Of a DNA stretch of 64,000 bases, positions 17,593 to 54,615 are shown piece after piece (positions within the stretch are counted from its first letter, which is position 1; each line of letters opens with the position of its first letter). A program made the translations under genes and the position numbers. The notes beneath the pieces are model-generated. The model was not told the origin of the DNA. It searched no databases and saw only the letters and a list, made by a program, of their open reading frames with translations. Source of the DNA: Isoetes taiwanensis (taxonomy: Eukaryota > Streptophyta > Lycopodiopsida > Isoetales > Isoetaceae); NCBI GenBank assembly GCA_021234155.1, contig JAJEKV010000092.1:2492561-2556560 (forward strand). Direction: 5' to 3'.

Positions 17593-17760
17593 GTCCAGCC
17601 CTTTAGGCTAAAAATTGATCCAGCCCTTAAGGCTAAAAGTTTTTCCTTATATACTTTAATAATGAACAATGAAACCAACATCTATGCTGCAGACATAGTT
17701 GTTGTATTTAAACCTTAAAAATTTACCCTATTCTCCTTCATGGAGCTACCATTTAACAAT

Positions 17761-18955: not shown

Positions 18956-18984
18956 CGTTGTCCAGATGTTTTCAAAATCAAGAT

Positions 18985-18996
18985 GCTCTGATACCA
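18985..18996 (-). promoter_or_regulatory. E2 primer binding site
   Basis: Minus strand TGGTATCAGAGC, complementary to initiator tRNA-Met, four bases inside the 5' LTR, as in E1. Confidence 0.9.
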
Positions 18997-19000
18997 AAAT

Positions 19001-31740: not shown

Positions 31741-33720
31741 TAGTGTTGGAGGCATTTCCAGAGGGGCCAGAGGAGTTGATGCACGAGTATAGCTCCCAAT
31801 ACGGGTCCGTGAGACACAAATTGATACCTCTGGATGAGGACAGGCTACGGGCTAGACGTGACCCTCAACATAGGCCCGAGCCAGAGGAGTTGATATAAAA
31901 ATGCTTCTGCATGATTGGACCATTGCACATAGGGTAGCAGGCTAGCCAACAACATCGCAGGAACTTATGAGTTGGCATGGATTAGCGGTATGTACATCTA
32001 CATGTTTTTTGTCCCTATACCACATCTTCACAATACTCCATCATATGCTCATAGTACTCGACTTCTCCATCCTTTTCACACCACTCTGACATGCATCCAT
32101 CTGCGAGTAGTTCATCCCTCACAGCAGAGCACGAGATGATGGAATTTAACAGAGAAAAGCTTGTAGAGGCCAAAAGGGAGTTGAAAAGAGTGGAAAAGCT
32201 AGACAAACTAGCAGACCAAGGGAGGTTGTGGACAGAGATAAATCCGGTAGAGATAGATACTGTAACCCGTAACTTACTATATGGCAGGATAGATGATGTG
32301 CACCATATCCCCAGATCTTCCCGTAGCCTTTCAAACCCACCTGACCATAGCCTTGCTACCCCACCCACTTACTGCTAAGGGATCTTACCATTGACCTCCG
32401 CCTCGCCACACCACCACCCTTGTCGAGGCGGTATGGAATAGTTGCATCTGCTCCGATCAGGGGCTAGCAGGTTTTTGATGATATTTTGTGCAACGCAATA
32501 GAGTCAGCAGGTTGAAGACACCTCTTTATCCCACCCTTCTCTCTTGCAGATGTCTCTGAGTCTGAGGCAGGATTGTGAGACCACACCCCAGGGTAATTCT
32601 TGTACCACTTCGGTGAGTTTGAGAGATATACTGTCTGGAGTTACCTGGTTCTCTACCAGTTTCATGAATGGCTGTGGGTCAACCGTCGAGATGTGAGCTA
32701 TTCTATGGACTTGGAGTTGCCTACTTCATTACAACTGCCTGCACTCTTCTAGGAGGAGGTACATATTTTTAGTCACTTTTATGGGGATGATACCAAAAGT
32801 GCTATGATGACTAATGGGGTGAGTCGGATGTATGATAATGATGCATCAAGCTGGTGCAAGCAAATGGTGCAGTCCCGCTCGCCTGTTGTCTTGTATAGGG
32901 ATGCCAACCTGGAGAATCTTATGAGGAGGGATACCTATGGGTCATCGTCAGGTATGTGTTGCACCTTGTCACTCATTAACTTCGTTCCAGTTAGTTGCAC
33001 TTGCTTGACGAGTTTGTCATTTTATTCCAGTGCTCTGCTTCACATGCTTAACAAACATGAACGTCATGCACTCTTCATTTTTGATCCATGCCTATATAAA
33101 GACTTCAGAATCACAGTGCAGTCCCTTCTTAATAGTGGCATGCTGAATGTGATGGTTTATCCCCTACTTCCCAAGGTCCCTCCAGTTTAGAAAAACCTCT
33201 CAATGAATCTATGGCCGATTGTTACTAGGTAAGTATTCTTATTTTCAACATGGTTTATTAGGCACATTTTTGCTGATTGAACATTTGTGCAGTGGTGCAT
33301 GATCAGGATTTACTATCTTACCTTGGATTGGGTGATGGGCAGGTGCATGGGTGGTGGTACTTCGACAACATGCCCCCGACACCTCTATATCAACTCCATA
33401 CACCTTACCCCATGTGCTCTCAAAAAAGTGTAAGTTCGTCGTTGGGCTGAATATATAAATGATATTAGACCTCTAACATGCAGGGCCACGAGATGAGCCT
33501 TCCACAACTTGGGAGTCTCGACAGAGTTTCTTCAGTAGGGTGAGCAGGTTATATTGTATAAGGCATCATGCCCTATTCAGAAGGATCACAATTTGTGTTG
33601 AATATATATTTTTGAAATCATGCTGCAGCTTGTTCGATGTCTTTGGTACCTGAACTGAGATGCCATCACAATTATCACCCTAGACTGGTACACTGCCCAG
33701 GAAGTGCGAGATATTCGAGC
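30840..33720 (+). pseudogene. Unknown multi-exon sequence, duplicated and broken
   Basis: I do not recognise the family. Coding-like pieces include MEFNREKLVEAKRELKRLE (30894 and again 32145; charged, helical) and an FEWERYTVW-like region read as FGEFERYTVWSYLVLYQFHE. That region continues to FSHFYGDDTKSAMM and DANLENLMRRDTYGSSSG (31350-31700, again 32600-32950), with an in-frame TAG. It ends at a plausible donor (CAG/GTATGTGT), and the acceptor TTCCAG precedes LVLEAFPEGPEELMHEYSS. After the second copy, KHERHALFIFDPCLYKDF (33045-33190) and a WWYFDNMPP piece continue the series. It could be a transposon-borne gene; no function is assigned. Confidence 0.4.
31741..32993 (+). repeat. 1.25-kb tandem duplication, copy 2
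   Basis: Near-identical repeat of 30488-31740 with scattered single-base changes (for example GGAAACGCTAG against GGAAAAGCTAG). After 32993 the sequence diverges into single-copy DNA that continues the exon series. Confidence 0.9.
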
Positions 33721-35530: not shown

Positions 35531-38344
35531 TTATTATAACTTTTTATGGGATGTAGCATGAGGATCAATGCAAAATATCTTGTGCCTGTCTTTTCCAATT
35601 ATACTCCAGCTGCCTCCTTCTTTTCTTACTGAGAATTCACTATTTAGTCCAAAGGGCAACAATTTTGATGTTAGATTAAAGTTAGAACATTGTAACTACA
35701 TGGTTGATCTCATTGGTCATGTTAGATGGTTATTCAAGCTACATCTTTAGTCTGCTACTCATTAAAAAGTAGACAAGTGCAATAGATCTTCGTATTTAGA
35801 TAGATCAGCTAGAACAAATGATGGTCTTCAGTATCTGCACATTGAAATTATGCATTATGCACACGGCTCAAATCTTGTTGAATAAGCTTGCAAGGGGAGG
35901 ATGATTGTTAGAAAGCTATTTGCTCCATTCATATACCTGCAAGTTGCACCTTACGTTTATAACATATGTAGATTGTAATTATTTGAATACTATTGCTATA
36001 ACATCTTTCTTATTGAGAACATTACAGTTAAATCTTTAAAATTGGAAAAAATAGGGCCTCTACAGTGTCTACAAAGCTCTTTGTACCCTAGTCTCTAGAT
36101 CATAATGGAAGCCTTTAAGAGCAGGGGTACTGTATTATAGCTGCATATGTCCAACATTAATAGGTTAAAGGCTCTTCCACATTAACGAGTCCTCTTCTTC
36201 ATTTCCATTCTACATTGACCACATGGGGTTGCACATGTAGTCATGAAGGTATCTGATTTTGTAGCACTATTATAGATCCAACTAAAACATGTGTCGACAA
36301 AAGGATGCAATTTACAACATTAAAAATCAGTTCAAATCTTCCTATCATATTTCAGAGTCTTAAATAAGACCAAGAGGCATCATAACTAGCAAAAAGTCAA
36401 CATTATAAGCAGGTATAAAAGGCATCAACTGCAGATTCACTGGCCATAACTTTCAAGATCAGGAAATATATGAAGACTTAGACATACATACTGCGAGATA
36501 ATATATTGCAAAGCTCACTTTTATACTTTAAACTATTATACTGTTAGCACGATCTCAACACTACCAGCAGCAGCCTGTCTCAATAACTTGTTTGATAGTA
36601 AAGAACCATCTACTCTGAGTTATAGTAGATAGATAGATAGATAGATAGTAGATAGGTAGATAGGTAGGTAGGTAGATGAGTTTTTACGTCTGTGGAAGCC
36701 CAAGCAAGTTATGGGATGGTATATTCAAATGGTGACAACCCAACAAAACTTGGGGACTAAGCCCCAGTATAACAATATGGAAAAAAAGAAATATAAATAA
36801 GATGAAATAAGATTCAATGCTTGTTGAGGCAGCTAGAGGTAATCCAACCAGGGGTGAGAGGCCGGTCTCGCACTCGATGGATTCACGAATAACAAAAAGG
36901 ATATGCCATCTGTGTTCACGAGGTGGCCAAAAACACCCCTGGTATACTGACTTATGAAAGCTAATTTAACTCCTAAAGTATATAGTTTATCCCAAATAAT
37001 GGTGAAAAAAACCCTTAATGGTAAGTACGCCAAAGTAAAATGGTCCAAAAAGCCCCCTATAGTTGAACTCACATGTTCTGCATGCCCATCAAACTGCCAT
37101 ATTTATATACTAAACATTTCTTTTGCAATCTCAGTTCTCGAGCCTTACATAGCTCGTTAGGCCTTCCATAGAGCTCCGAGGTGACTTCCATGCTGTAAAA
37201 CATATGATCGGTCCTATCATGTATGAAAATGCACCAAAATATGTCGGGGCTAATTCGACCTATACCAAACCATTTAACTGCATCAATGCTACAGGTTCTC
37301 AAGTGCATGGCACGTATGAAGAAGTGTTCCGCTTCCTCTGTATCCGTGCAATCGCCGGTCTTAGTCACTCCTACTATATATAGGTTCAAGCCTCTGGTTT
37401 GTTTTAGTCGATCTGTATTTAATTCTTGTACACCATCCTGCACCTCTGCCCCTATCTGTATCTCCATGTCCTCCATTTGTGTGCACTATCTCGTATCTAG
37501 CCTATGAGTTACGTCTGATCTGCTGCATTGACGGAAAGCCTGGTATGAAAGTGCAATATTGAAAGAGTTTAATTGGTGAAAAAATGGAGCAAATGGGACT
37601 TCTGGGGGACCAAAAGGGAAGAAAAATGGGCAGGAATGGGGCCGCCACTGCAACACAAGATGGTAAAATGGAGGAAAGAATGGTGACTAATTTCTGTATA
37701 GGGTTGGAATGAATGCTGTGAGCAGAGGTGCAGAGGTAGAGGGAAGGATCGACAGGGCCGAGATGAAGAAGATTAAATGTGAGGGGACAAGGTACTGATC
37801 TACATGCCCAAGATATGATCTGTCGAATTTGCCATAGCCCGAAGGACTACGAGGGAAAATGCAAGCTTAGGGGTTTCTCGCTACAACGAAGAGTTGTGTT
37901 GTAGGGCTGTGCTTCTTATGGGGGAGATAGACGATAGTTCCAACCTAATTTTTTCAGCCCTACACTTTCGTAAATCAAGATTCAATGGTTTAAGATAAGT
38001 CCATGTCAATTTTTAGAACACGTGGATAGCCTAGGCTTTCAGATAAGTTGACACTCAAGGTAGGGTTGTTGCGTTAAAAATACATTGAATACTAGCACTT
38101 TGTTTGGAGAAAGTAAACTATCCTATTGATTTTAAATGTGTTATTTAGTTTCTTGATTCGCCATCCGAGAAAGTGAGGTCATTTGTATTAAGTTTTTTAT
38201 TCACACAAGACAGAGGTCTTCTCTTCATAGAATAATAGGGAAAAAAATGATTGGCACATCCTTTTCGATTGAAATAACAGGGTTCCAAAAAAAGAAAATG
38301 AAAATTGCATGAGCCCCATTTTAATGTAATGCGTCTTTTCTATT
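35531..38344. other. Intergenic DNA with a second retroposon tail and a microsatellite
   Basis: At 36625-36780 a (TAGA)n/(TAGG)n run is followed by TTTTTACGTCTGTGGAAGCC and AACTTGGGGACTAAGCCCC. It resembles the reverse complement of a LINE 3' end of another family with a tetranucleotide tail. A 135-aa minus-strand frame (37069-37476) is noted separately. No other gene is seen. Confidence 0.5.
37069..37476 (-). CDS. Unrecognised 135-aa open frame
   Basis: The frame starts MEDMEIQIGAEVQDGVQELN and has mixed, protein-like composition with several Cys and His residues (DCTDTEEAEHFF, WFGIGRISPDIFW). I recognise no domain. There is no supporting splice or promoter context and the flanks are repeat-rich, so it may be a transposon remnant or chance. 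Confidence 0.25.
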   Translation of the reverse strand: MEDMEIQIGAEVQDGVQELNTDRLKQTRGLNLYIVGVTKTGDCTDTEEAEHFFIRAMHLRTCSIDAVKWFGIGRISPDIFWCIFIHDRTDHMFYSMEVTSELYGRPNELCKARELRLQKKCLVYKYGSLMGMQNM

Positions 38345-38481
38345 CTTCCTCCAGATCCACAAGAAGTGGCTCCTTAGCTTTGGATGGTTCGTGATAGTGT
38401 CAAGAAGGAGCAATTAGTGCATTCGATGTACATTGTTCTGCTTCATCCTGAAGCGTTATCTCCATCACCAAAATGGTCTTT
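38345..38481 (+). pseudogene. Degenerate LINE ORF2 piece left of element E1
   Basis: A plus-strand frame reads WMVRDSVKKEQLVHSMYIVL then PKWSLVILELHQKAVW once E1 and one TSD are removed, continuing at 53894. The right-hand part has a zinc-binding RT C-terminal domain, so E1 landed in an older LINE of a different family. Confidence 0.5.
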
Positions 38482-39143
38482 TGATGTGGTGGTGCTCGGG
38501 GGAGCGGCTCAGGCCCAACGCATCTGGAATTAATACTTAAAGCTAGCAATTAGTTTGTCAAGGGTAGTACACTTATTAAATTATGATGGGTCAAGGTCGA
38601 TAATTTATTTTAAGTTATAAACCATTGAAAGCTTAAAATTTATAATAGTAGATGGCTGATAATGGGTCGCGAACCCAGCAGACGAAATTCGGCCGATACT
38701 GCATCAGAGCCAAAGAAGGCTCCCGGATCTTGAAGAAAAGGTTGATTTGATGCTGTAAAAGGTTGAATCTCAGATATTTTTGGTTGATCCTCTGTTATTA
38801 GTGATTAATCACCTTTTTGAAAGATCCTTTTGAACAGAAAAAGGTTATTCCAGAAATAGGTAGATCTGTGCCTATAAAACGCAACTGTTCCTCTTATCTT
38901 AGCATAGAGTCTTCGGTTGAATCCTGAGCAAAGTCTTCTGCCTTGCCTGCAGTCATAGTTGGTTGAATCTGTTCTTTGAGTTTGAAATCTTGGATGCAGT
39001 TGTGGAGGCAAGATAACGATTTCTTGCTAAGCCTGGCCCGGTTGGGTGGAGAGCATAGCCGTGAAGGCTGGATCTTTAAAGTTTTTGTTGGTTGTTTACA
39101 TTCTTTGATTCTTGTTTTGCTGTAAAACCTTGCAGCCGTATCA
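38482..39143 (+). repeat. E1 5' LTR
   Basis: 662 bp, starting TGATGTGGTGGTGCTCGG and ending GCAGCCGTATCA. It matches both E2 LTRs and the LTR at 53222-53888. Confidence 0.93.
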
Positions 39144-39147
39144 ATTT

Positions 39148-39159
39148 TGGTATCAGAGC
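39148..39159 (+). promoter_or_regulatory. E1 primer binding site
   Basis: TGGTATCAGAGC, complementary to initiator tRNA-Met, four bases after the 5' LTR. Confidence 0.92.
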
Positions 39160-39184
39160 ATCTTATTTTGAAAACCTCTGAACA

Positions 39185-40384
39185 ATGTCTACCAATCGCT
39201 TCGGCGTACCTGATCATCAGTATACCCAGGTTATGAGCAATGCCAGCTACATAGCAGACCAAATGGTTATTTCTCCTTCTACCAATCCCGCAGAGCGTCA
39301 AAGGCAACTGGAATACCTGTGTCTGGCATATAAATTTTTACCTGAGCCTTCTGTGCAAACGAATGTACAGCCAAATCCACCCAGTCCGCCTCCAGAATCC
39401 TCTTGTAAATGGCTAGAGAAAGTTGCAGGTTTGCCTACCTTCTCTGGAGAAAAGAGAAACCCGCCTACTGTCTTTAGATTCCTCTCTACATGGGAAAGTT
39501 ATTTTGAATTGGTAAAAGCTACCGAAAAGCAGAAGCTGCAGGCCATGGACAAATATCTGACAGATATGGCAAGAACATGGTGGCAAGGAAGAAAAAGAAT
39601 AGACCCAAAGATTTTAACATGGAAGAACTTTAAAGAAGCTTTTGAAGGTTACAATTTGGCAGCTAATTACCATAATGATGTCAAATGAGAATGAGACTTA
39701 TTCAAGCAAGGTGACAACGAATCAGTTTATCAGTACACATCGAAATTCCAGTATTTGTCCACTCAAATGGATGGGTTAACTGAGAAGGAATTGTTACGAA
39801 AATATAGAGCGGGACTTAAAAATTCCTTGTATGCAGAATTATGTTTTATAGATCCTCGGACTTTGGAAGAAGCAACAAAGAAAGCTATAGCTGCAGAAAG
39901 GAAGTTAAATCCTGATTTTATAAACTGCAGTATATGGGAAGGACACCCTGAGGACAAAGGCAATGACAAGACAAGCACTGAAAAAGCGAGCAATAGCAAG
40001 AATTCTGATAAGGGAAATAAAAGATATAGAGCAAGTGTGGGTGATAATCAAGACCAAGCTCAGAAAGCAAAGTGGGATAATCAGTCTGACAGATCTTCAT
40101 TCAAGAAAAGTGGGTGTTATTACTGCGGAGGACCACATCTTAAGGTAGACTGCCCGAAGTTAAATGCAAAAAGAGATCAGAATGACCGAGGCAATAAGGA
40201 AGAACGAAGGGAATCAGGCAGAGCTGAGTATAGATCAAATCCTCGTTCCAGCAGACCTCCGGCCCAAATGCCTCAGTTGGAAGAGCAAACGGCTGAGCCA
40301 AGTGCCAAAACGAATAAACAAGTAACTTTTGCCGACGAAGTGCAAAAGCAAAGGGGGAAACTGCAAATTGCCTATTTGAAATAG
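39185..40384 (+). pseudogene. E1 gag, in-frame stops
   Basis: One continuous frame of about 400 codons starting MSTNRFGVPDHQYTQ. It contains the gag core (WLEKVAGLPTFSGEKRN, STWESYFELVK, MARTWWQG, WKNFKEAFEGYN), then VK*E*DLFKQGDNESVYQY, MDGLTEKELLRKYRAG, a CYYCGGPHLKVDC knuckle and a Lys/Glu-rich tail. Two TGA codons (39686-39688 and 39692-39694) interrupt it; the second is also present in E2. Gag packages the RNA; no enzyme is encoded, so mobility depended on another element. Confidence 0.88.
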
Positions 40385-40646
40385 GTTGTTAAATGGTAGC
40401 TCCATGAAGGAGAATAGGGTAAATTTTTAAGGTTTAAATACAACAATTATGTTTGCAGCATAGATGTTGGTTTAATTGTTCATTATTAAAGTATATATAA
40501 AAAAACTTTTAGCCTTAAGGGCTGGATCAATTTTTAGCCTAAAGGGTGGACTTGAATATTTCTGATTGTGCACTCAATCAGGGTTGCAACCATGGACTTG
40601 GTTGTGGTAGATATTTCTAGTTGTGGATTCAACTAGGGTTGCAATG

Positions 40647-42236
40647 TGTGACGTCCCACGTATTTATACGGTATACATATAAATATACTGACACGCCACC
40701 ATGGGGTATTTTAACCTAGGGGGTTGACCTAAAAGGGATTAATTTAGCTATGCTAAATTAATTATTAAAGGATCATTACCTATAATTAAGGAAATAGCAT
40801 TTAATTAACTCAATTAAGTTAATTGATTACTTAGGAAGGTGCCACCTGGCCAAATTCGATTGGCCAGCATGGGAATGCTAATTTGGGGTATCAACATGGA
40901 ACCCTCATCCCAGTTGACCCCAAAATCGAGCCAAGAGGAGGAGCAACTGAGCTCCCAAGTTGCTGAAGCTGTTGCTGAACACCCAAGTTGCTGAAGCTGT
41001 TGCCAAGCACCCAAGTCTTAGAAGATGGAGGCACCCCATGATAATGGATCAAGTCGAAACTTAGGTTAGTGGATAATCTAGTTTGACATCTCTAAGGCTA
41101 GCGCATCAGTCAAGTTCTCTGAGTCTTCTCTGGTTGTTCTTTCTTTGATATTTAGGATTACATTTCAATTATGGATTATGTTTATTATGAATGGATGGAT
41201 GAATCTATGACAGTATCTCTGTTAGCCTTCCGTAAAGCAGGGATTAGAGGGGGGTAGAGACCTCTGTGCCTTATGCTTTAGTATGCTCCTAGTAGCTCCT
41301 TTAATTCCCAATTAATGCGGCCTGTGTACAAGAGACCACCGAGTCGTGGATGCTATGGAATTACTTAGCACCATAGAAGGGACGCAGATGGTGAAGTGGG
41401 GGTGGGGTCTTGCGGGGAACATAAAAGGCTCACAGGACTCTTACAATGGGCTAGGCGATGATAGCCGGTCACGAGGGGCGGGTATGGGTCCGACACTCCC
41501 CGGGTGTAGAGGTGTGACCCATATGGGGTATCGCACTTTGAAGATAAAGTTAGGGGAGTAGGTCGGGTACGGATGCGGGGTCGGCTGATGTGGCGTATTC
41601 TCTAGCTCACCCATGGAACCGCTGTGATCCTGGAAGGGGACACCTCCCTGACCTGCCTCATCGGACCAGGACCTCATGAACCCTGGAGTAGGCTCGAAGG
41701 GTGATACCTTGAGTCTGCATTTCCGGAAGGTTATAGTGATGCCATAGCATGATTCGACTCATCTGCAAAGTGTGCACGGGAGGGGCGGATGGAGTGGACA
41801 ACCCTAGCCGATGTTCTATGCCAGCCAACGCCATGCCAAGATTCGGTCTGCTGATCTCCTGAGACCTAGCCGTCAGTCGACCCTCACTGGAGTCTGAGCC
41901 GGGGTAGAACCATGAGTTTGGGGTGTTTTCTCTAGTATTAAATGTATCCTCTCTGTTGTTATCAGTTGGATGGATGTGCCACCCTTCGTGGTGGTCTTTA
42001 TGATATGATTATGATGTATGCTAACCTTGTATTCACGCTTCCGCGACATAGGAGCCCCATTGAAGGCGTGGGCCAAATGACCCCTCTGTGTCCTTCACTC
42101 GAGCATCTTTTCATAGATGGCCCGAGTTAGACGGAGGGCCCTGCTCATGGCGAGATGGGTGCCATGGAAGGGGAAAGTCCCCGTATGTATACGGCCGAGC
42201 GTCGTATATGTTCTGGGAGCGTCACACAATGGATTT
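40647..42236 (+). repeat. Gypsy element G, LTR 1
   Basis: A 1590-bp LTR with 7-bp inverted ends TGTGACG...CGTCACA. It is flanked on both sides by CAATG (40642-40646 and 42237-42241), so locally it has the structure of a solo LTR. It is not followed by a primer binding site. Near its 5' end is a palindrome, TATTTATAC around GGTATAC. It aligns with LTR 2 over the whole length with scattered differences. Confidence 0.92.
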
Positions 42237-42677
42237 GATTGTGGTAGATATTTCTAGTTGTGGATTTAACTAGGGTTGCAACCATGGATTTGGTTGCGGT
42301 AGATATTTCTAGTTGAGGATTCAACTAGGATTGCAGCCATGGATTTGGTTGTGTTAAACTTGCCATATAATTCCTTGATCGAGGACGATCAATCCCGGGA
42401 AGGGGAGGAATTGATATGGTGGCGCTCGGGGGAGCGGCTCAGGCCCAACGCATCTGGAATTAATACTTAAAGCTAGCAATTAATTTGTCAAGGATAGCAC
42501 ACTTATTAAATTATGATGGGTCAAGGTCGGTAATTTATTTTAAGTTATAAACCATTGAAAGCTTAAAATTTATAATAGTAGAGTCATGGCTGATAACGGG
42601 TCGCGAACTTAGTAGACGAAATTCGACCGATACTGCATCAGAGCCAAAGAAGGCTCCCCGATCTTGAAGAAAAGGTC
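42237..42677 (+). repeat. Duplicated E1 tail and partial E1 LTR
   Basis: This stretch has minisatellite units, the purine tract (GGGAAGGGGAGGAAT) and the first ~266 bp of an E LTR (from TGATATGGTGGCGCTCGG at 42412). It repeats the sequence that follows LTR 2 at 53037-53487. At about 42677 (GAAGAAAAGGTCAAT) it breaks into the coding sequence of the gypsy element. It replaces what should be the primer site and leader of G. Confidence 0.92.
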
Positions 42678-43378
42678 AATCACAGAGGGCAACTCACTTG
42701 ACAGAGGAAGCTGCTAAACTTCGTGAAGATACCCTCCGTGCACAGCAAGTGGAACAGGAGCAAGGGAAAAGAATGCAAGATGACGCGGAGCGGATAGCCA
42801 GAGAAGCAACCGAGTCAGTTAAGGAGCGGCTTAGGAAAGAAGAGCAGGAACGGAATCGTCTAGATAGACAAGACATGCCACCTCCGAGTAATCCTTTTTT
42901 CCACCAAAAGCGAAAGAGTACGGCCCGTAAGTCGGGTGCTCAGTACAAGGATCAACTCAAGACTCGGGGTGGGGTCACTAAGGATGCAGGGGACAATCAG
43001 CGGGATGAAATCATCCGAAAGGCCCGGCATCCAAGGACAGCAGGGAAAACTATTCCTGGAGCCCCGCCGCAACCAAAGAGAAAGCATCGGTACAAACCAG
43101 GTACGGTGGCACTGCGGGAGATACGGAAGTACCAGAAGTCCACTGACTTTCTGCTACGCAAACTTCCTTTCCAATGCCTGGTCCGGGAAATCGCCCAAGA
43201 ATATAAGACGGATCTGCGGTTTCAGGTACATGCAGTCCTGGCGCTTCAGGAAGCGGCCGAAGCTTATCTGGTGGCCCTCTTTGGGGATGCCAATTTATGT
43301 GCCATTCATGCTAAAAGTGTCACGATAATGCCGAAGGGTCTTCAGTTAGCACGCCGGATCCGTGGGGAACGACCGTGA
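42678..43378 (+). CDS. Histone H3 fused to a coiled coil, 5'-truncated, inside gypsy element G
   Basis: The C-terminal 97 residues (130-226, counting from the TTG at 42698) are histone H3: [62 protein letters not shown] and [16 protein letters not shown]. Loop 1 has canonical length, so it is not CENH3. The tail is diverged and longer, but KSTARKSG recalls the K9 region of H3. Residues 1-60 are a charged coiled coil. Visible differences from canonical H3 include Cys for Arg in the LPFQR motif, Gly for Glu in LFEDTN and Ser for Arg in HAKRVT. The frame is open but has no ATG until 42773, and is open leftward to the rearrangement junction, so the native protein was longer. Gag and pol of a chromovirus follow downstream. 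Confidence 0.95.
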
Positions 43379-43692
43379 GGATGTAAACTTGCAAGATGTA
43401 TATACTTTTCTGTGTATCAATTTAAAAACTAAGTTTTTGACTCGTCTTTCTACATTGTAACAATCAAATTTCTTTTCTTATTGATATTACTATTTAAGAT
43501 TCCGAGAAGAATAAAATAGTAATAATAATAATAAAAGAAAAACTTAAAAAAAAAAACAAAGAAAATATAATATAATTAGCTGGCGCATCAAACTCCGTGC
43601 CTCAATAGTTAAAAGTCAGATTCACTTTAAGTTTTTTATTTCCTTCAATCTTCCTTTCCGTTTCGCTCCTCCTTCTTGCTCTCTTCTTTGCC
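43379..43692 (+). other. Spacer between H3 fusion and next coding unit
   Basis: AT-rich, with an A-rich run at 43530-43570 and a pyrimidine-rich stretch before the ATG at 43693. It looks like untranslated or promoter-type sequence; no coding frame is seen. Confidence 0.5.
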
Positions 43693-45101
43693 ATGGATTA
43701 TGAGGGACGTTTTGCCTGGTACATGGGAGGCGAGCAGTGGGATCCTCAGGTTCCCTATCCTCTTCTGATCCCCTGCTGCAGTGCAGGGTTGATCTTATCG
43801 ACAATATGCGGGCACACCCTCATTATGATGAGTTCCTCGAGTTTTACAACGAGGAAATCTTACCGCAGGCAGAACTCTTGGGCGAACCGCCTCAGCCCTA
43901 TCTCCACAGGGACATCTTATGGCAGATGTTTGGGGATGACCATCATGGTGATGCTATACTTAGAGGCATTGTTCGACGTGCAAAGCATGCCCCTATTTTT
44001 TATCGTGGACCTAATCAGCTTTATTTTGAGTCCCAGTTTGCCCTTGCCCTTATCATGGACAGATATATTGAAAGTAGCGACACGCCCTTAGAGCAAACCA
44101 AAGCTCCCCTTTCCCCAGATCCTGAGGAGGATGAACAGATAAGCTATGACGATTTTGTAAGATGGAAGAAGTTGGCCGCAGAGAAGCCTTTACCTCGTAG
44201 TAAGGGCCAAGCACTTGTCGGCTTGAGTTCACTTCCTACTATAAAGGTTGGGGATCAGGATTATTTGTTACTGAGTGATATTCAATGGGCATACCAGCAT
44301 ATCGCCAACAAGGGCAAGCAAAAGACGGCTCATCTCCTTTATGAGTTGGCCGAGTATTGTCAAGGTCAAGATGACTTCATGGATTACTCTCGACCCGTCT
44401 ACCTGCCGGAGATACACCGACTGCTCAATTATCATCCCCTTGATATTAAGACCGTCAACACTCTATTGTCGCTACGACAGTTAATGATCCAGAGTGTTCC
44501 TTCAACAATTCCTGAGTCGGCTTTCCACGCTACGGCCCCACATGTTCCTAACATCAACGATGTCGTAGTCAAGATGGAAGATGACCCAACTACTGAAGAT
44601 CTATGTGATGAAAGCCAGTACGCTCAGGAGGAGAAAGAATTTGTTAAGGAAGAGGAACTGCCGCAGAACTTTGAATCTGAGTTGGCTTCCTTAACCCATC
44701 CGACTGTTGCGGGGTTGAAATGCCATATTACCCGGTTCTTCTTGTCGACTTTTACAAGCAGGCAAGTGCTCTTCTTTGCCAAAGCAATTGCGCCAGAAGC
44801 TGAGGCGGCTGTATGGGCACTTAGGGCACTTTCTACAATAGCCGGCCATAAGAAGTTACCCACTAACCTGGAGCAGGTCATCCTCGTAAATCACGATCTG
44901 GCCATTGCGGTGTTTGACCACGATATCGGCTCTTGGATGAACTTGAGTCTACTGGTTGCAGCGCCATTAGCTACAAATGTTCCTCCAGAGATAGCTTCGT
45001 CAGCTGCTTCATCAATTAGTCCTAGTGTGTTACTTCTTCAGCACCGACCTGAGCCTGAGTTTGATACCCAAGTGCAAGATGGAGCAGGGCCAACCTCTTA
45101 G
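43693..45101 (+). CDS. Accessory protein with H2B-like and H2A-like regions, inside gypsy element G
   Basis: The native start is probably ATG 43693 (MDYEGRFAWYMGGEQWDPQ), with a one-base frameshift near 43760 into the long frame that ends at 45101 (454 residues from 43737). Residues 325-402 align with the histone H2A fold over its full length with about one gap: AGL at the start, a TIAGH matching ELAGN of helix 2, and VILVNHDLAI matching RIVPRHIQLAI. Residues 175-250 resemble H2B: NKGKQKTAHLLYELAEY for helix 2, then RPVYLPEIHRLL and HPLDIKTV matching KPTITSREIQ and LPGELAKHAV. An acidic linker (270-315) separates them. The first 150 residues are unassigned. The basic histone tails are absent. 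An alternative is a chance helical resemblance. Confidence 0.55.
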
Positions 45102-45317
45102 TTCTAGATTTTATCAGACATTGTACTCAGTTCTATGTAATTTTTGGGTTGGCATTTCCTTTAATTAGCCATCATACAATATATATGTTATTTTCTTATG
45201 CTTTATGATTAGTGTATCGTTGAGTACAACTAAATTGTGTCCCTATGATACTTGTTATCTCTTTTAGAGTTGGAGTATAAGAAATTGTTCAATGTTGTAT
45301 ATTCATTCTTACCGTCT
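45102..45317 (+). other. Spacer between accessory coding units
   Basis: AT-rich non-coding sequence ending in a CTTACCGTCTTGCAG stretch that would serve as a splice acceptor for the next unit. No primer site or repeat is seen. Confidence 0.4.
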
Positions 45318-45779
45318 TGCAGACGAGGAACTCGAAGAATTTGAGGAAAGAATCACCAACGAAATACGAAGGGACGATCCGGGACCTCCCGACCAAGACT
45401 ACGGTATGGGGAGTATCCAGACCGGGATGATGACTACGAAGCGGAGGAGCCCGTGGAAGAAGGAGAGCCTTATGATTCAACTAAAGGCTTGCAAATAGTC
45501 AACATTCTCCGTGAACGTGCTTTCGAACATCTACAACAAACTCTCCGTCGTACCTGGGATTACTGGGATATGACCAGGCACGAGGCTTTTGCTGACGCCA
45601 ATGACCATTTATGGCAGATCTTTTATGCGCTAAGAAGCCTCTTCAATCTCCTTATCATTAGCCCCACATTAGACTACCAGCACGTTATCATCCAGGCATG
45701 GGCTCGCTACAAGGTGGTCAGGGCCGTACGGGAGAGCGTTCGCTACTCTATCCTGCAGTACCCTTTTGCGCAGCCTTAG
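45318..45779 (+). CDS. Acidic accessory protein with an H4-like region, inside gypsy element G
   Basis: Two frames joined by a one-base shift near 45405 give an acidic N-terminus (DEELEEFEERITNEI, then DRDDDYEAEEPVEEGEPYD) and a helical C-terminal part to the stop at 45777-45779. The stretch from HLQQTLRR to QAWARYK can be laid on histone H4 helices 1-3: RR in helix 1, DHLWQIFYAL against GVLKIFLENV, and PTLDYQHVII against KTVTAMDVVY. Two short gaps are needed. Identity is low, and the acidic rather than basic N-terminus is unlike H4, so this is a hypothesis supported mainly by its position beside the H3 and H2A-like units. A CAG acceptor precedes DEELEEF, so splicing from upstream is possible. 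Confidence 0.4.
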
Positions 45780-46059
45780 GCCTAATCTCTTTAGTTTTCT
45801 TTTATGCCTAAGTATGTGTTGACTAAAAGTTGTCTAATGTACAGCCTTATGGCTAAATATGTGTGTAATCACTACTTTTGTATGGTATGACCTTAAGTTT
45901 TGTTAAAGATACATTTCCCATGTAACTGCTACTTTGACGTTATAATAAAGATCTTTTCTTTCACTCTCTTGGACTGTCTTTATTATTATTCCCTAGCATT
46001 ACTTAAAATGGTCTTCTTTGTGACACGTGGTATCACGATAATTCTCCTTATACCTTCTT
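45780..46059 (+). other. Spacer before gag, with polyadenylation-like signal
   Basis: AT-rich, with ATAATAAAGATC at 45938-45950 that could end a transcript of the accessory units. No coding frame is seen. Confidence 0.4.
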
Positions 46060-47250
46060 ATGGTCAAGATAGACGGTGCACGTAACGCCTCGTGGCAGAC
46101 ACCCGCAAGTGCTAGCAGATTAACGCCTGAACAGGAACTCCTGTTGATCAAGCGACAGTTAGTAGAGCTGCAAGCTTATGTGTTGAATGCCAACCCACCG
46201 CAGTATATGCAGGAGGATGGGCCGGAGTTACCTCCGTTACCGCCAAGTCCACCACCACAGCAGCCACCTGCACCTGAACCAGGCCCTGTACCCGCACAAA
46301 GGAGGCACCGTTCCAAACGTCGTCGAAGTTCCTCTACGGATAGTGCCACATTCTCACAATCGGCCACTTCTGTGTCCTCTGAGTCGTCTGTATCATCTGG
46401 TGACCATGCAAAGCGCCGGGACAAGGAGTATCGTAAGACGGTTGATACGGCCATAACCAGTATATGGAAAAACAGGAAATTGGCCCAGTTTGATGGGAAA
46501 TCTAGAGGCAGGCTGAATGCAGAGTCCTGGTTGGACGAGATGAAGGAGTTTGGAAAATCCTATGGCATGACAGAAAAAGATACAGGAAAAGTTGCCACCA
46601 CAAACCTTACAGGAGCTGCTCGTATTTGGTGGAAGGGCTATGTCAGAGCCAAGCATCTGGACAGAAACAGGTGCAAGTTCAAAAAGTTTGCCAAAGCTTT
46701 TAAGTCGCATTATGTGCCTCGTGCGCACAAATGCCAACAAATTCAGACTTTTTACAGGTTAGAGCAGAAGGGTATGTCAGTTCAGGCCTACACTGATGAA
46801 TTCATGCGCTTGAGGCTGTACGTGCCCGGAATGAATGAAAAGAGGGCGGTGGAGGGCTATATTGAAGGGTTGGCCCCATCAATTAAACGAATGGTTAAGG
46901 CCATAGACCCGAAATCAGTTGCAGATGCTGAGGCTAAGGCATTGAGCCTTGAAGAGGACGCACCACGAAACCAGTACCAGCGCCCCGCCTCTTACTCGCA
47001 GCCACGCCCATACACACCCTACAAGGCCCGTTCACCAAGTCCTGGGCCTTCTCAACAGAACTCTAACGGTCGCCAGGAAAAGAAAGTCACCTTCAGCATG
47101 TCCGACAAACTGAACAATGTCGGTAAGGAAGTTCGGAACCTCTTACAGTCTATTCCCAAAGAGGCCCGAGAGCATCTCCACAAAGAGAAGGCATGTTACA
47201 GGTGTATACGGCCGGGGCACTTTATGCAGAATTGCCCTTATGTCACCCAG
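46060..47250 (+). CDS. Gypsy element G gag
   Basis: Starts MVKIDGARNASWQTPAS. Residues 50-130 are Pro-rich then Arg/Ser-rich. The retrotransposon gag core is at about 135-290 (FDGKSRGRLNAESWLDEMKE, ARIWWKGYV, FAKAFKSHYVP, LEQKGMSVQAYTDEFMRL). A standard CX2CX4HX4C knuckle (CYRCIRPGHFMQNC) lies near residue 380. Just after the knuckle the sense frame shifts by one base into the pol frame (LAMADLDWDDLEST), so the frame running on to 47409 is artefactual. Gag forms the particle and binds RNA. The frame is otherwise intact. Confidence 0.9.
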
Positions 47251-47640
47251 ACTGCCAGCTGGCCATGGCCGATCTTGATTGGGATGATCTCGAGTCTACG
47301 CTACCTGTCGACGAGGAGGCTCCCGAGTACATTCACGGTGCGTCCCATATCCTTGCAGCCATTGAAACCGGCAATGCTGAAAGTTAGTCTGCCGTTATTT
47401 CTACTATAGGTCAGGTAGACAGTAAGCCTTTCATAATTCTTATGGATACGGGAAGTACACATAATTTTGCTTCTCCTAGAATGGCCCAGGTATTGCAGCT
47501 TGAGACTTTAAGGTCCCGACCGAAACACATTACTTTAGCGGTGGTAAGATCGGACATACTCATGGCGTCGCATTAACCTCAAAATCATTTGCCAGTGCAC
47601 CACTTGCAATCGGTCTTTGAGCTAATGGATAGTGGCAAGT
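47251..47640 (+). pseudogene. Gypsy element G protease region, broken
   Basis: After the shift, DLDWDDLESTLPVDEEAP leads to a TAG (47385-47387). After that comes GQVDSKPFIILMDTGSTHNF, the aspartic protease active site (DTG), and [18 protein letters not shown] in another frame. At least two frame changes and one stop lie between gag and RT. Confidence 0.8.
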
Positions 47641-49210
47641 ATGATCTGATTGTGGGCATGGAATTCTTGGCATCCGCAAAAGCTAATATAGACTGCGAAA
47701 AACGGGAGGTTACCTTCAACGCAGCTAATGGAGCCCGCGTAACCATAAAAGGTGATCCATTCAACCCCATTATGCAGTCTATGTCCATCAGGCAGTTAGA
47801 TAAAGCTATACGCAGGGACAAGTTACTTTGCGTCATCAGGCTTGCGTCCATTGAGTCAGATGCTAAACAGAAGCAAGTAGTTGATGCCTTGCCAGAGAGC
47901 ATTGCTGATCTTCTCAGCGAATTTAGCGATCTCTTCCCAGACGAGATCCAGAAACTTCCTCCAGAGATAGCTTTGGAACCAGGTACTAAGCCTACTAGTA
48001 AGGCCCCGTACCATTTGAGTCCCCCTGAATTGGCAGAGCTTAAGAAGCAACTTCAGGAGTTACTAAACCTAGGTTTCATTCGGCCTAGTGTTTCGCCTTT
48101 TGGCGCTCCTATCCTGTTTGTTAAAAAGAAGGATGGCTCCTTGAGGATGTGTATTGATTATCGGCAGCTCAATAAGCATACCATCAAGAATCGTTATGCT
48201 TTGCCTAGGGCAGACGATCTTATGGACCAGTTGCAAGGGGCCAAGTACTTCTCAAAGATTGATTTACGCTCCGGATATTACCAAATAAGAATTAAAGAGG
48301 AGGACATCCATAAGTCTGCTTTTCGCACTAGGTACGGGCACTATGAATTTACAGTTATGCCTTTCGGATTAACTAATGCCCCCGCAACGTTCATGCGACT
48401 AATGAATGATGTCTTCCGATAATACTTGGATGATTTTGTTGTTATTTTCTTTGACGACATCCTCATCTATAGTAAAACCCTGGAGGAGCATGAGAAGCAT
48501 CTTCGGCTAGCCCTACAAAAGCTGAGACGTCACCAGCACTTTGCCAAGCTCTCTAAGTGTAAGTTTGCCACCCCCAAGGTGGATTATTTAGGCCATGTGA
48601 TTTCAGCCGAGGGAATTGCAACCGATCCAGCAAAAATAGAGGCAGTCAAGGATTGGCCGACTCCAAGTAATGTGTCGGAGGTCCGAAGTTTCTTGGGACT
48701 GGCAGGCTATTACCAGAGATTTGTTAAGGATTTTGCAAAGATTGCAGCACGTCTTACCGACCTTACGAAGCATGAGAAAGTGAAGGATTGGATGGAACAT
48801 TGGAAAGCAAAGGTCCAGGTCAGTTTTCATAAGCTTAAGGATGCTTTGACGTCCGCACCAGTCCTCACATTGCCGGATCCAGAGAAGGATAAGTCAGTAG
48901 CAATAGATGCCAGTAAGATTACTACCGGGGGAGTCCTCATGCAAGAAGGGAGGGTTATCGCCTATGATTCTAAGAAAATGAATGAGACCGAACAGCGATA
49001 CCCTACCCATGATCAGGAATTGTTGGCTGTTGTTCGCGCTTTGCATATATGGAGACACTACCTTCTTGGTAGGAGATTCCAGCTTGATACGGATCATCAG
49101 AGTCTCCGTTATCTAACAACCCAGCCAAATCTCAACCTCCATCAGAGAAGATGGATGGAATTTCTGGAGGAGTATGATTTTGAGATTATGTATAAGCCTG
49201 GGAAACAAAT
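47589..49210 (+). pseudogene. Gypsy element G reverse transcriptase and RNase H, one stop
   Basis: One frame contains the end of the protease region ([20 protein letters not shown]) and then [78 protein letters not shown] follows (48420-48422), then [19 protein letters not shown] with the catalytic Asp pair. RNase H follows ([46 protein letters not shown]). The frame ends at a one-base shift near 49208. Apart from these lesions the Ty3/gypsy RT core is complete. Confidence 0.92.
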
Positions 49211-50803
49211 GTGGTTGCGGATGCGTTATCACGCCATCCCTTGGTAACCCGAACCCATTGTAATGCAATTTCCACACTCACCAGCGAGTTTGGAAAACAA
49301 ATAGAGCAAGCCTTAGCCACGGATCCAGAGTTTCGTGAAGTGTGGGATAGTTTGGCTAAGGAGGCACGCACCGATAAGGAACGTGAAGCTTTCCGTTCGT
49401 ATAAGAAAGACGGCAACTTGTTATATTACAAGGATAAGTTGTGTGTGCCTGAGACTTCAGGAGTACGTAAGCTTATTCTCCATGACACACACAACAGCCC
49501 TATCGCTGGCCATGCAGGTTTTATGAAGACCTACTTTAAAATTCGCTCCAACTATTATTGGCCGTCTATGAAGAAGGACATCGCCAGGTATATAAAGCAG
49601 TGTCAGGTGTGTCAACAAACCAAGGCTGAGCAATTAAGGATTCCAGGAGAGTTGCAACCTCTGGATGTGCCCAACGCTAAGTGGGAAGTGATAACCATGG
49701 ATTTCATTGTGGGCCTTCCACGTACTCTCCGTGGATATGATGCATTGATGGTAGTGGTCGACAAATTGTCGAAAATGGCTCATTTCTTGCCATGTCGTAC
49801 CACAGATACAGCATTCGATACCGCTTTGTTGTTTACCAAGGAGATCTTCAGATTGCATGGAATGCCATGGGTTATAGTATCCGACAGGGATCCCAAATTC
49901 GTGAGTGCGTTCTGGAAAGATTTCTTTGCCACCATCCAAACCAAGCTTGCTATGAGTACGGCATATCATCCTCAGACGGATGGTCAGACAGAGCGTACCA
50001 ATCGTATTATAGAGGATATGCTACGAAGTTATGTGTGGAGTAAGCAATCACAGTGGGCTGACTATATTTATCTGGTCGAATTTGCCTATAACAGCATGAA
50101 ACAGGACTCTTCCAGAATGTCTCCCTTTATGATAAATTATGGTTATCAATGCCTTACTCCAGACACATGGCATAATCCCGTTTCTAAAGTGGAGGTTTCT
50201 CAACAACTTCTCTTGAAAATGCAAGTTTTGGTTGAAGAAGTCCGTGCTTATTTATTGGCTGCACGCAGTCGTCAGAAGAGTGTAGCGGATAAGCACAGAA
50301 CCCCACGGGTCTTCCAGGTGGGCGAATCAGTTTGGCTTAAGATTAAGGTAAAACAAGCCAAGCTTAAGATTGGTAACTGCAAGAAGCTGGCACCCAGATG
50401 GGCTGGGCCGTTCAAAATCATTGAACGTGTTGGAGAACAGGCATATCGCTTGGATTTGCCACCCCGCTTGAAGATCCACAAGGTCTTTCACGTGAGTCTT
50501 CTGAAGCAACATATCCCAGATCCAGGCGAGATCTTGGATACACCCACCCTTCTTGAAATGACAGAAGAGCACCTAGATATAGTGCCTGAAGCTCTTCTTG
50601 ATCGAGCCTATAAGCAGACCAGAAGGAGTCAAATGCTGCAATACTTGGTTAAGTGGAAACACTTGCCAGTTGAGGATGCTACGTGGGTGATGAAGATAGA
50701 CCTTGAGAAGCACTATCCGGACTTCATGCGGGAATCTCAGGGCCGCACCATCAACGATGCTATCAACCCCGCACCTGGCGGTTCGCCGAGAATCATGCAG
50801 TAG
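49211..50803 (+). CDS. Gypsy element G integrase with chromodomain
   Basis: Begins at VADALSRHP, the RNase H-integrase linker. The HHCC zinc site is formed by [11 protein letters not shown] and CQVCQQ. The catalytic core has [19 protein letters not shown] and an [19 protein letters not shown] segment, giving an intact D-D-E triad. A GPF/Y-type module ([15 protein letters not shown]) follows. The C-terminus is a chromodomain ([20 protein letters not shown]), which defines chromoviruses and directs integration by reading chromatin marks. The 530-residue frame has no stop. It is out of frame with RT by one base. Confidence 0.95.
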
Positions 50804-51436
50804 AGGGGTAGATGCATCGTGCTTAATAATAGTTACCGATGATGAGATCACCTTCGTGTTCTCTAGGACGTGGTGCATTGTCAATGTCGGCATGACCGCG
50901 AAGTGCTTGGAAAGCATGTAGTTAATAGGCCGCATTCATCTCGGCTATAATGGGAACTTGAGCATTCCTTACGCCGCAATAAATTGCGAACCATAGGCAT
51001 GATAGGTTCCCTTGTAGATAAATTTTTCCTTTTATTTCTTATAGGGGGGTCCCTTCAACCACAACCTATTTATCTTATCTATATATACTGATGTATTGAC
51101 ATGTGCAGGCCAATGAGCAGTACGTGACCTGCCCATGTATAAAGGGTTGCTGATGGCCCGACTTCTTCAGTTTGATCTTGTCTACATGTGTTGTTTTCTT
51201 TGCCACTGTGATGTTTGAAATTGGACTTCGGTCCTTAAACCTTTTTATGATGAGTATGTGAAATGCACCTTCGTGCTTAAACTCTGATATGTTTTAAACT
51301 TTAATGTTATTACCTTCGGGAATAAGGAATTTCCTCTTTTTCCTTATGTATACGTTCTTCTATTGCAGTTCTTCGATTAACCGTCACTTGTTTAACTAAC
51401 CCCAATGCTGAGGACATCATTATTTCTAGGGGAGAA
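50804..51436 (+). other. Gypsy element G 3' untranslated region and polypurine tract
   Basis: Non-coding sequence between the integrase stop and LTR 2, ending TCTAGGGGAGAATG, a purine-rich tract suited to priming plus-strand synthesis. Confidence 0.8.
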
Positions 51437-53036
51437 TGTGACGTCCCACGTATTTATACGGTATACGTATAAATATACTGGCACGCCACCATGGGGTATT
51501 TTAACATAGGGGGTTGACCTAAAAGGGATTAATTTAGCTATGCTAAATTAATTATTAAAGGATCATTACCTATAATTAAGGAAATAGCATTTAATTAACT
51601 CAATTAAGTTAATTGATTACTTAGGAAGGTGCCACCTGGCCAAATTAGATTGGCCAGCATGGGAATGCTAACTTGGGGTATCAACATGGAACCCTCATCC
51701 CATTTGACCCCAAAATCGAGCCAAGAGGAGGAGCAGCTGAGCGCCCAAGTTGCTGAAGCTGTTGCTAAACACCCAAGTTGCTGAAGCTGTTGCCAAGCAC
51801 CCAAGTCTTAGAAGATGGAGGCACCCCATGATAACGGATCAAGTCGAAACTCGGGTTAGTGGATAATCTAGTTTGACATCCCTAAGGCTAGCGCGTCAGT
51901 CAAGTTCCCTGAGTCTTCTCTGGTTGTTCTTGCTTAGGATTAACCCTTCTTTGATATTTAGGATTACATTTCAATTATGGATTATGTTTATTATGAATGG
52001 ATGGATGAATCTATGACAGTATCTCTGTTAGCCTTCCGTAAAGCAGGGATTAGAGGGGGGTAGAGACCTCTGTGCCTTATGCTTTAGTATGCTCCTAGTA
52101 GCTCCTTTAATTCCCAATTAATGCGGCCTGTGTACAAGAGACCACCGAGTCGTGGATGCTATGGAATTACTTAGCACCATAGAAGGGACGCAGTGGTGAA
52201 GTGGGGGTGGGGTCTTGCAGGAACATAAAAGGCTCCTGGGACTCTTACAATGGGCTAGGCCTGATAGCCGGTCACGTAGAGGGCCGGGTATGGGTCTGAC
52301 ACTCCCTGGGTGTAGAGGTGTGACCCATATGGGGTATCCTGCACTTTGAAGATAAAGTTAGGGGAGTAGGTCGGGTACGGATGCGGGGGTCGCTGATGTG
52401 GCACGTATTCTCTAGCTCACCCATGGAACCGCTGTGATCCTGGAAGGGGACACCTCCCTGACCTGCCTCATCGGACCAGGACCTCATGAACCCTGGAGTA
52501 GGCTCGAAGGGTGATACCTTGAGTCTGCATTTCCGGAAGGTTATAGTGATGCCATAGCATGATTCGACTCATCTGCAAAGTGTGCACAGGAGGGGCGGAT
52601 GGAGTGGACAACCCTAGCCGATGTTCTATGCTAGCCAACGCCATGCCAAGATTCGGTCTGCTGATCTCCTGAGACCTAGCCGTCAGTCGACCCTCACTGG
52701 AGTCTGAGCCGGGGTAGAACCATGAGTTTGGGGTGTTTTCTCTAGTATTAAATGTATCCTCTCTGTTGTTATCAGTTGGATGGATGTGCCACCCTTCGTG
52801 GTGGTCTTTATGATATGATTATGCTGTATGCTAACCTTGTATTCACGCTTCCGCGACATAGGAGCCCCATTGAAGGCATGGGCCGAATGACCCCTCTGTG
52901 TCCTTCACTCGAGCATCTTTCCATAGATGGCCCGAGTTAGACGGAGGGCCCTGCTCATGGCGAGATGGGTGCCATGGGAGGGGAAAGTCCCCGTATGTAT
53001 ACGGCCGAGCGTCGTATATGTTCTGGGAGCGTCACA
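51437..53036 (+). repeat. Gypsy element G, LTR 2
   Basis: A 1600-bp LTR, TGTGACG...CGTCACA, followed by the CAATG target duplication (53037-53041). Compared with LTR 1 it has scattered substitutions and a ~16-bp extra segment (GCTTAGGATTAACCC region near 51931). Confidence 0.95.
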
Positions 53037-53221
53037 CAATGGATTTGGTTGTGGTAGATATTTCTAGTTGTGGATTCAACTAGGGTTGCAACCATGGATT
53101 TGGTTGTGGTAGATATTTCTAGTTGAGGATTCAACTAGGGTTGCAGCCATGGATTTGGTTGTGTTAAACTTGCCATATAATTCCTTGATCGAGGATGATC
53201 AATCCCGGGAAGGGGAGGAAT
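53037..53221 (+). repeat. E1 tail: minisatellite and polypurine tract
   Basis: Resumes E1 after the nested element. It contains further copies of the ~55-bp unit (GTAGATATTTCTAGTTG) and ends with GGGAAGGGGAGGAAT before the 3' LTR. Confidence 0.9.
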
Positions 53222-53888
53222 TGATATGGTGGTGCTCGGGGGAGCGGCTCAGGCCCAACGCATCTGGAATTAATACTTAAAGCTAGCAATTAATTTTTCA
53301 AGGATAGCACACTTATTAAATTATGATGGGTCAAGGTCGGTAATTTATTTTAAGTTATAAACCATTGAAAGCTTAAAATTTATAATAGTAGAGTCATGGC
53401 TGATAACGGGTCGCGAACTTAGTAGACGAAATTCGGCCGATACTGCATCAGAGCCAAAGAAGGCTCTCGGATCTTGAAGAAAAGGTCAATTTGATGCTGT
53501 AAAAGGTTGAATCTCAGATATTTTTGGTCGATCCTCTGTTATTAGCAATTAATCACCTTTTTGAAAGATATTTTTGAACAGAAAAAGGTTATTCCGGAAA
53601 TAGGTAGATCTGTGCCTATAAAACGCAACTGTTCCTCTTATCTTAGCATAGAGTCTTCGGTTGAATCCTGAGCAAAGTCTTCTGCCTTGCCTGCAGTCAT
53701 AGTTGGTTGAATCCGTTCTTTGAGTTTGAAATCTTGGATGCGGTTGTGGAGACAAGATAACGATTTCTTGCTGAGCCTGGGCTCGGTTGGGTGGAGAGCA
53801 TAGCCGTGAAGGCTGGATCTTGAAGTTTTTCGTTGGTTGTTTACATTATTTGATTATTGTTTTGCTGTAAAACCTTGCAGCCGTATCA
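53222..53888 (+). repeat. E1 3' LTR
   Basis: 667 bp, TGATATGGTGGTGCTCGG ... GCAGCCGTATCA, followed by the TCTTT duplication. It matches the 5' LTR. Confidence 0.95.
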
Positions 53889-53893
53889 TCTTT

Positions 53894-54260
53894 AGTTATC
53901 CTTGAGCTCCATCAGAAAGCAGTATGGTAATGGGTATGGGATAAATTGCTCCATCCTAAGATGTTTATCTTATGGTGGCAGATCATCATAGATGCATGCG
54001 AGTAAATATTGTCGTGCATAATTTCAATTAGATGTCTCTGTGATATGCCCTCTCTACATGCAGAGGGATGAGACAATTAAGCACTGCTTCTTCTTGTGTC
54101 AACATGTTCGGCCTGACTTAACAATGGGTTTTAGGTCTTTTTCATTGTGGCAAGTATAGCAGGTCCTATTGTCGCAGCTCTTAGGACAAGCTAGCAAAGA
54201 GGGCATTCCATTTGACATCCGTTTGGATCATCTAGTCCATATACAAGAGATGAAAAGTCG
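53894..54260 (+). pseudogene. LINE zinc-binding RT C-terminal domain remnant
   Basis: Contains WDKLLHPKMFILWWQIIIDA and, after a frame change, CPLYMQRDETIKHCFFLC, the W..L...K...F.W and C..C...E...H..F.C pattern of the zf-RVT domain of plant LINEs. It continues the fragment left of E1 at 38345, so one old LINE was split by E1. It belongs to a different family from LINE 1-3. Confidence 0.7.
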
Positions 54261-54615
54261 CATTTAATTAAAGTGGGTCAGATCCTGACTTTGGGTCTCA
54301 TACTGAAAATGAAACTCATACTAAAAAAAAAAAAATATTGAATTGAATGCATGTATAGAATTACACATCATAGACCAAGAACTAGGTCACTTATTTTCTT
54401 CATAAATATTACAAGTCACGAGTTGAGAAACGTCAGTGTTATAGCATGGAGGTTGCTCATGGCTTTGTCCATCTCTCTTTTGGGGATCTTGTGGGTCTTG
54501 TCCTTTGAAATGTGACAAGTTGGATATGACCATACCACACACTCCACCAATTTCCTCCTTTGAGGATCAGCATGATTTGCCCTCCACTTCTTCTCCTAGC
54601 AGTCGGTGTATTGCT
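54261..54615. other. Intergenic DNA
   Basis: AT-rich with an A-run at 54326-54337. No gene seen. Confidence 0.5.

Follow-up and report, generated by a model that had tools for sequence, protein, structure and literature searches.

How did a histone H3-like reading frame come to lie between the two long terminal repeats (LTRs) of a chromodomain Ty3/gypsy retrotransposon in Isoetes taiwanensis, and was it a gene of that element? We addressed this question in a stretch of 64,000 nucleotides, referred to as the window. The frame lies inside an element denoted E (40647-53036), between its LTRs and on its coding strand. Because both are bounded by exact target duplications (CAATG and TCTTT, respectively), E is recognized as being nested in the 3′ internal part of N1, an older gag-only element (38482-53888, TCTTT on both sides; LTR divergence K=0.047). 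The features of the locus, in order of position, are:

38477-38481, unstranded: target duplication TCTTT left of N1, matching 53889-53893
38482-39143, + strand: N1 5′ LTR (TGATGTGG...CCGTATCA), from LTR comparison over 38483-39143
39148-39159, + strand: N1 primer-binding site TGGTATCAGAGC, a motif after the 5′ LTR
39185-40384, + strand: N1 gag-like region of two open frames (weak Arc_capsid match, E=0.0099; position; CCHC by eye)
40642-40646, unstranded: target duplication CAATG left of E, an exact match to the right copy
40647-42226, + strand: E 5′ LTR, TGTGACG...CGTCACA, 97.9% identical to the 3′ LTR
42227-42680, + strand: putative repair scar, CAATG plus the 3′ part of N1 (55-bp repeats, polypurine tract, start of the N1 3′ LTR), from repeat comparison
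42683-43378, + strand: H3-like open frame 3′ of the scar, from frame scan and alignment; in-frame ATGs at 42773 and 42875
42704-42871, + strand: N-terminal extension, predicted single long helix, no relatives found (protein search, AlphaFold2)
42908-43084, + strand: remodelled H3 tail with insertions, KSTARKSG kept; limits approximate (alignment)
43085-43375, + strand: H3 core, 82 of 97 residues identical to plant H3.3, with Y41, H87 and L90
43704-45101, + strand: ORF2, orphan, stop-free, 465 codons; candidate start ATG 43693 in another frame
45345-45779, + strand: ORF3, stop-free, 144 codons, no family (domain search, frame scan)
46060-47409, + strand: E gag, Ty3_capsid by domain search, CCHC knuckle by eye
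47577-49247, + strand: E protease end, reverse transcriptase and RNase H by domain search; frame broken by a stop at 48420-48422
49196-50803, + strand: E integrase and chromodomain in a shifted frame (domain search, frame scan)
51428-51436, + strand: E polypurine tract AGGGGAGAA, adjoining the 3′ LTR
51437-53036, + strand: E 3′ LTR, from LTR comparison
53037-53041, unstranded: target duplication CAATG right of E, an exact match to the left copy
53222-53888, + strand: N1 3′ LTR, from LTR comparison over 53219-53888, followed by target duplication TCTTT at 53889-53893

Judged from its sequence, the frame is histone H3-like, derived from H3.3 and of plant type. A stop-free stretch extends on the + strand from 42668 to the stop codon at 43376-43378, its first codons lying inside the fused flank; the start taken for the frame is TTG, both in-frame ATGs stand 5′ of the core, and the original start may have been lost. 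The translation from 42698 matched the Pfam Histone family over residues 112-222 with E=1.3e-37, and the top chain among solved structures was histone H3.3 (E=4e-50), which bears out the clear H3 core reported in a preliminary description of this DNA. That description put the core matches at about 80 of 97; our alignment of the terminal 97 residues with plant H3.3 is free of gaps and gives 82 (84.5% core identity). Pfam match and alignment together establish a full-length H3 core, and the frame has no intron. The conserved residues include Y41, H87 and L90, which we take to be the marks of plant H3.3 as opposed to H3.1. The 15 core changes relative to plant H3.3 are R42K, E59D, L60F, I62L, R69C, D77E, F78Y, S86V, G102A, E105G, T107A, R116S, D123G, I124L and A135P. 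Three of them fall at E105, R116 and D123; E105 and R116 are presumably the sites of yeast Sin mutations, which loosen nucleosomes at the dyad, and we assume R116 and D123 to be near the H3-H3′ contact.

The whole-H3 protein search scored 8000 candidates, all of which passed, and our comparisons rest on the best 120 of these 8000. The motif SHAVLALQ occurs in six of the 120 proteins among the matches listed, all six from named plants. Many of the best 120 of 8000 matches are annotated as 'centromeric protein CSE4', but those whose cores were compared have canonical ones. The hallmark of centromeric H3 (CENH3) is a lengthened loop 1 (CATD) together with a diverged core. As the core of the frame contains no indels, its loop 1 is not lengthened, and the nearest core among the matches listed is that of canonical plant H3.3. 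A CENH3 origin, already rejected in the preliminary description on the grounds of loop 1 length, is ruled out.

N-terminal to the core the frame departs from H3.3. The long diverged tail retains KSTARKSG, as had been noted before; 14-18 of its 38 residues are kept, depending on the gap setting, and insertions are present. The frame has no canonical tail with a free N-terminus, and owing to the low tail conservation, the insertions and the extension we do not class it as a canonical H3.3. AlphaFold2 with single-sequence input predicted the charged N-terminal stretch to form a helix (residues 3-58, pLDDT 77-96 by ten-residue blocks), so that of the coiled coil proposed to precede the tail this single-sequence model lends support to the helix; the H3 core was poorly modelled in the same run (pLDDT about 40-56). 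Foldseek with this poorly modelled H3 structure yielded nothing at E<=0.001, and none of the 31 rows listed was a histone. Residues 1-128 of the frame had no relatives at E<=0.1 in a word-based protein search over 55 candidates.

The surrounding element has the organization expected of a chromovirus. E carries reverse transcriptase, RNase H, integrase and chromodomain in pol order, and its LTRs show the corresponding TG...CA ends, 5-bp target duplication and polypurine tract; with LTRs, gag and chromodomain present, the Ty3/gypsy chromovirus context of the preliminary description is confirmed. The LTR pair differs by K=0.0213 (97.9% identity, 7 gap events), and pol is broken by the stop at 48420-48422 and by a frame change near 49.2 kb. 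N1 possesses the motif TGGTATCAGAGC, which we take to be an initiator-Met-type primer-binding site; this sequence is absent from 40647-53036, where the scar occupies the expected site. The chromovirus SM-Tcn1 is reported without a recognised primer-binding site (PMC2864245). By eye, the first and third cage aromatics of the E chromodomain are absent. E resembles in this respect, and in its reverse transcriptase, RNase H and integrase, the group II chromodomain pattern described for plant chromoviruses, for which, in contrast to E, the available text mentions no H3 gene (PMC3350952).

H3 does not lie directly upstream of gag, as first stated: ORF2 and ORF3 intervene, and gag starts about 2.7 kb 3′ of H3. 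None of 1000 simulated sequences reached a frame of 454 codons or more, and because ORF2 exceeds this length and adjoins H3, the presence of a cargo region next to H3 is suggested. A word-based protein search that scored 8000 candidates found no relatives of ORF2 at E<=0.01, and its structure model has a mean pLDDT of 33.5. When viral contigs were scanned with H3, integrase and ORF2, no locus was confirmed in 5, 5 and 1 candidate stretches, respectively; H3 against prokaryote contigs gave 75 stretches, one of them, in a bin of uncultured Verrucomicrobiales, confirmed by a match of 22 residues. Codon usage of the H3 core was fitted best by a uniform model, with no clear attribution to E, and that of the N-terminal extension by the neighbouring C3H host gene. 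About 90 bases 3′ of the H3 stop there is an A/T-rich inverted repeat (43469-43540, 27-nt, 89% complementary); Rfam gave zero matches across 38000-54500, this repeat included. Elsewhere the window contains a 1.26-kb direct tandem duplication (30485-32995, 99% identical), a plant AtC3H46-type CCCH zinc-finger exon at 58059-59183 on the + strand (PABC_AtC3H46, E=2.6e-29) and a LINE-type reverse transcriptase/endonuclease pair.

The 5′ boundary of the H3 segment coincides with a rearrangement. In place of E's leader, the 5′ LTR borders on 454 bases (CAATG plus another 449) that duplicate the N1 sequence flanking E's 3′ LTR, and this scar joins the H3 segment at 42680. The N1-LTR part of the scar is 98.15% identical to the N1 3′ LTR vs 94.70% to the N1 5′ LTR. 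Positions 42227-42680 and 53037-53490 are 97.8% identical; their divergence (K=0.0224) is the same as that of the E LTRs, and the block of LTR, CAATG and N1 flank therefore appears, from these sequence comparisons, to be the product of a single duplication. Most simply, E's leader broke and was repaired: the left end, in the 5′ LTR, would have been extended by copying the 3′ LTR and its flank and then joined to the right end immediately 5′ of H3. The same structure would result if a solo-LTR allele had been joined to a full allele, and under either route E's leader is gone.

Two other interpretations of this junction were discarded. Raw repeats gave an LTR of 2.0 kb ending at 42680; the exact target duplications place the E LTR ends at 42226 and 53036. 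A GT...AG intron by which a small ATG frame of the N1 LTR would be spliced to that of H3 was set aside because the copies of the small frame in the scar and the N1 3′ LTR, as judged by eye, carry stops, and because the scar accounts for the adjacency. The small frame is itself a feature of the N-family LTR: at 38652-39136 a short ATG frame ends in AAAAG/GT, and about 400 bases 3′ of this point, near the LTR end, a pyrimidine-rich stretch ends in TTGCAG, which together have an exon-and-intron-like look. A second, antisense copy of the N family at 16699-19778 (- strand) is bounded on both sides by an exact 5-bp duplication, CAATC. It has an initiator-Met-type primer-binding site, repeats 5′ of the polypurine tract and about 110 extra bases (19254-19361) within its 5′ LTR.

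The number of core changes provides a measure of when H3 diverged. If the LTRs are used to set the neutral rate, 2.05 replacements should have accumulated in the core since the E LTR copies parted, as against the 15 seen (P=5e-9); at the age of N1, an upper bound for anything entering N1, 4.53 are expected (P=8e-5). As the 15 changes exceed neutral expectation even at N1's age, H3 was already divergent before reaching the locus. A fresh retrocopy of canonical H3.3 is ruled out by the same figures, and so is the recent host-gene copy that had been named beforehand as the alternative to capture, insofar as its source was canonical H3.3. The open frame is weak evidence of constraint. That it has no stops is true, as is the break in pol with which the preliminary description contrasted it; since the LTR copies parted, however, only 0.28 nonsense changes are expected, so that the absence of any (P=0.76) proves little. 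Over the time needed for 15 neutral core changes, 2.1 nonsense changes are expected, with P(0)=0.12. A better argument is the conservation of the core against the divergence of the tail (four gap settings, Fisher 2e-5 to 1e-7), from which it follows that constraint was at some time stronger on the core than on the tail. This contrast fits evolution in an element or in a host gene alike.

On balance we favour, by a modest degree, the view that E carried an H3.3-derived accessory gene in a cargo region between its 5′ LTR and gag. The position of H3 within E's LTRs, on E's strand and next to a 465-codon frame suggests an element gene. Against this stand the single copy in the window, the contact with the scar, the lack of relatives for the extension and ORF2 in word-based searches, and a codon usage that gives E no preference. 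Of the capture by a chromovirus that had been proposed, the location between the LTRs, the coding strand and the divergence before arrival thus hold, but the normal leader has been replaced by the scar at 42680.

Since H3 touches the scar, it possibly came with the repair. In that case the repair of the leader would have copied in part of a host H3 variant gene, divergent and with an N-terminal extension, and H3 would never have belonged to the E family. The H3 frame begins right at the scar end at 42680, the scar itself is templated from elsewhere, and a divergent donor accounts for the 15 core changes. Such a donor must be a host H3 with a helix extension, however, and none was scored among 55 candidates (the host possibly being outside the set); the agreement of the H3 strand with E would moreover be due to chance. 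We regard this origin as unlikely. It is more doubtful still that H3 is a nested processed retrocopy, for which LINE machinery would have inserted the transcript of a divergent host H3 gene into E's leader, with an A-rich stretch as its tail. The frame is devoid of an intron, AATAAA and an A-rich stretch follow the stop (about 43507-43570), and the LINE-type pair mentioned above could represent such machinery. Yet the age argument excludes a canonical H3.3 donor, so that a divergent one is needed here too, and the three families of direct repeats in 42600-43800 (9-14 nt) are about at chance level; a 9-nt pair (42774, 43390) flanks most of the H3 frame and stops short of the A-rich stretch. The repeat test is a weak one because the 5′ flank of H3 is lost. 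An assembly artefact, in which the scar is a false join at 42680 between a solo-LTR allele and a full E allele or copy with the H3 neighbourhood itself being right, is improbable: the left side does have the exact structure of a solo-LTR allele (N1-CAATG-LTR-CAATG-N1), but there is no N in the window, the block copies differ by 2.1-2.2% and should be separable by long reads, and H3 stays attached to the 3′ part of E regardless.

If H3 was an accessory gene of E, its history may be reconstructed as follows. A spliced host H3.3 mRNA would have been taken up, consistent with the intronless frame. The frame would then have evolved outside canonical H3, probably within the element, with the core kept, the tail lengthened and the helical extension joined. 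The insertion of E into the older N1 is recorded by the target duplication CAATG, and the scar would reflect the subsequent repair of a leader break by copying of the 3′ LTR and flank, with loss of the leader and perhaps also of the H3 start. In an active element, the H3-like protein might pair with host H4 and enter nucleosomes by the replication-independent H3.3 route. Conceivably, and this is the weakest step, the tail in the resulting chromatin would be poorly read or marked by host silencing enzymes, to the benefit of the element; the changes near the dyad and the H3-H3′ contact would suit a histone that forms unstable or poorly silenced chromatin. The wider proposal, a chromovirus lineage that encodes its own replacement-type H3 with remodelled tail and helical extension and thereby blocks silencing marks on its own or host DNA, we put forward tentatively, considering it possible but with the chances against it.

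Several systems invite comparison, as far as the accessible sections of the respective reports describe them. A hAT DNA transposon of Pyrenophora tritici-repentis acquired an H3-like (H3L) gene by transduplication, with 26 such genes in the reference genome, and its long form contains an unknown central ORF (PMC3538342). The two cases share a mobile element with a divergent H3-like gene and a second frame of unknown kind, the central ORF there and ORF2 here; they differ in that the 26 very similar genes, documented by ESTs, belong to a fungal DNA transposon, whereas E is a plant LTR retrotransposon seen in one copy and known from sequence alone (PMC3538342). Ty3/gypsy elements of Phalaenopsis have captured an AlkB-type RNA demethylase and, like E, are plant elements in which an additional ORF encodes a protein domain taken from the host, but the domain is another one, and many consensus copies and in vitro activity are reported (PMC9289625). 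The same study surveyed the LTR retrotransposons in 121 angiosperm genomes and, after filtering at five consensus sequences per species, found 15 unusual domains; nine of the 15 are named in the available text, histone not among them (PMC9289625).

A further parallel is provided by single viral H3s, found in a xenomavirus, in phycodnavirus- and mimivirus-related contigs and in a sylvanvirus (PMC9145170). Their core identities are 73-87%, the tail is extended in three of six, and all or part of the alpha-2 chaperone site is retained; the reviewers expect nucleosomes with host histones (PMC9145170). The frame in E is similarly a lone H3, 84.5% identical in the core, with the plant H3.3 residues at 87-90 and an altered tail, but the viral genes reside in DNA viruses (PMC9145170). 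In the main text of this viral histone review, the words 'retrotransposon' and 'retrovirus' have 0 occurrences (PMC9145170). A histone gene in an LTR retrotransposon was not encountered in the open-licence literature among the matches listed, in agreement with the preliminary description, which knew of no plant LTR retrotransposon carrying one.

Taken together, the capture of host genes by mobile elements is already known, and a histone in a plant LTR retrotransposon is without precedent among the matches listed. The chromodomain of chromoviruses is believed to be their point of contact with host histone marks. If E indeed carried H3 as a gene, the element would also furnish the histone partner in this contact and would constitute a natural test of which features of the H3 tail and dyad are required for host silencing. 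Were it no more than a single-locus event, the locus would still represent a dated example of an H3.3-derived frame within a retroelement, and also of a rearrangement that copied an LTR together with its flank.
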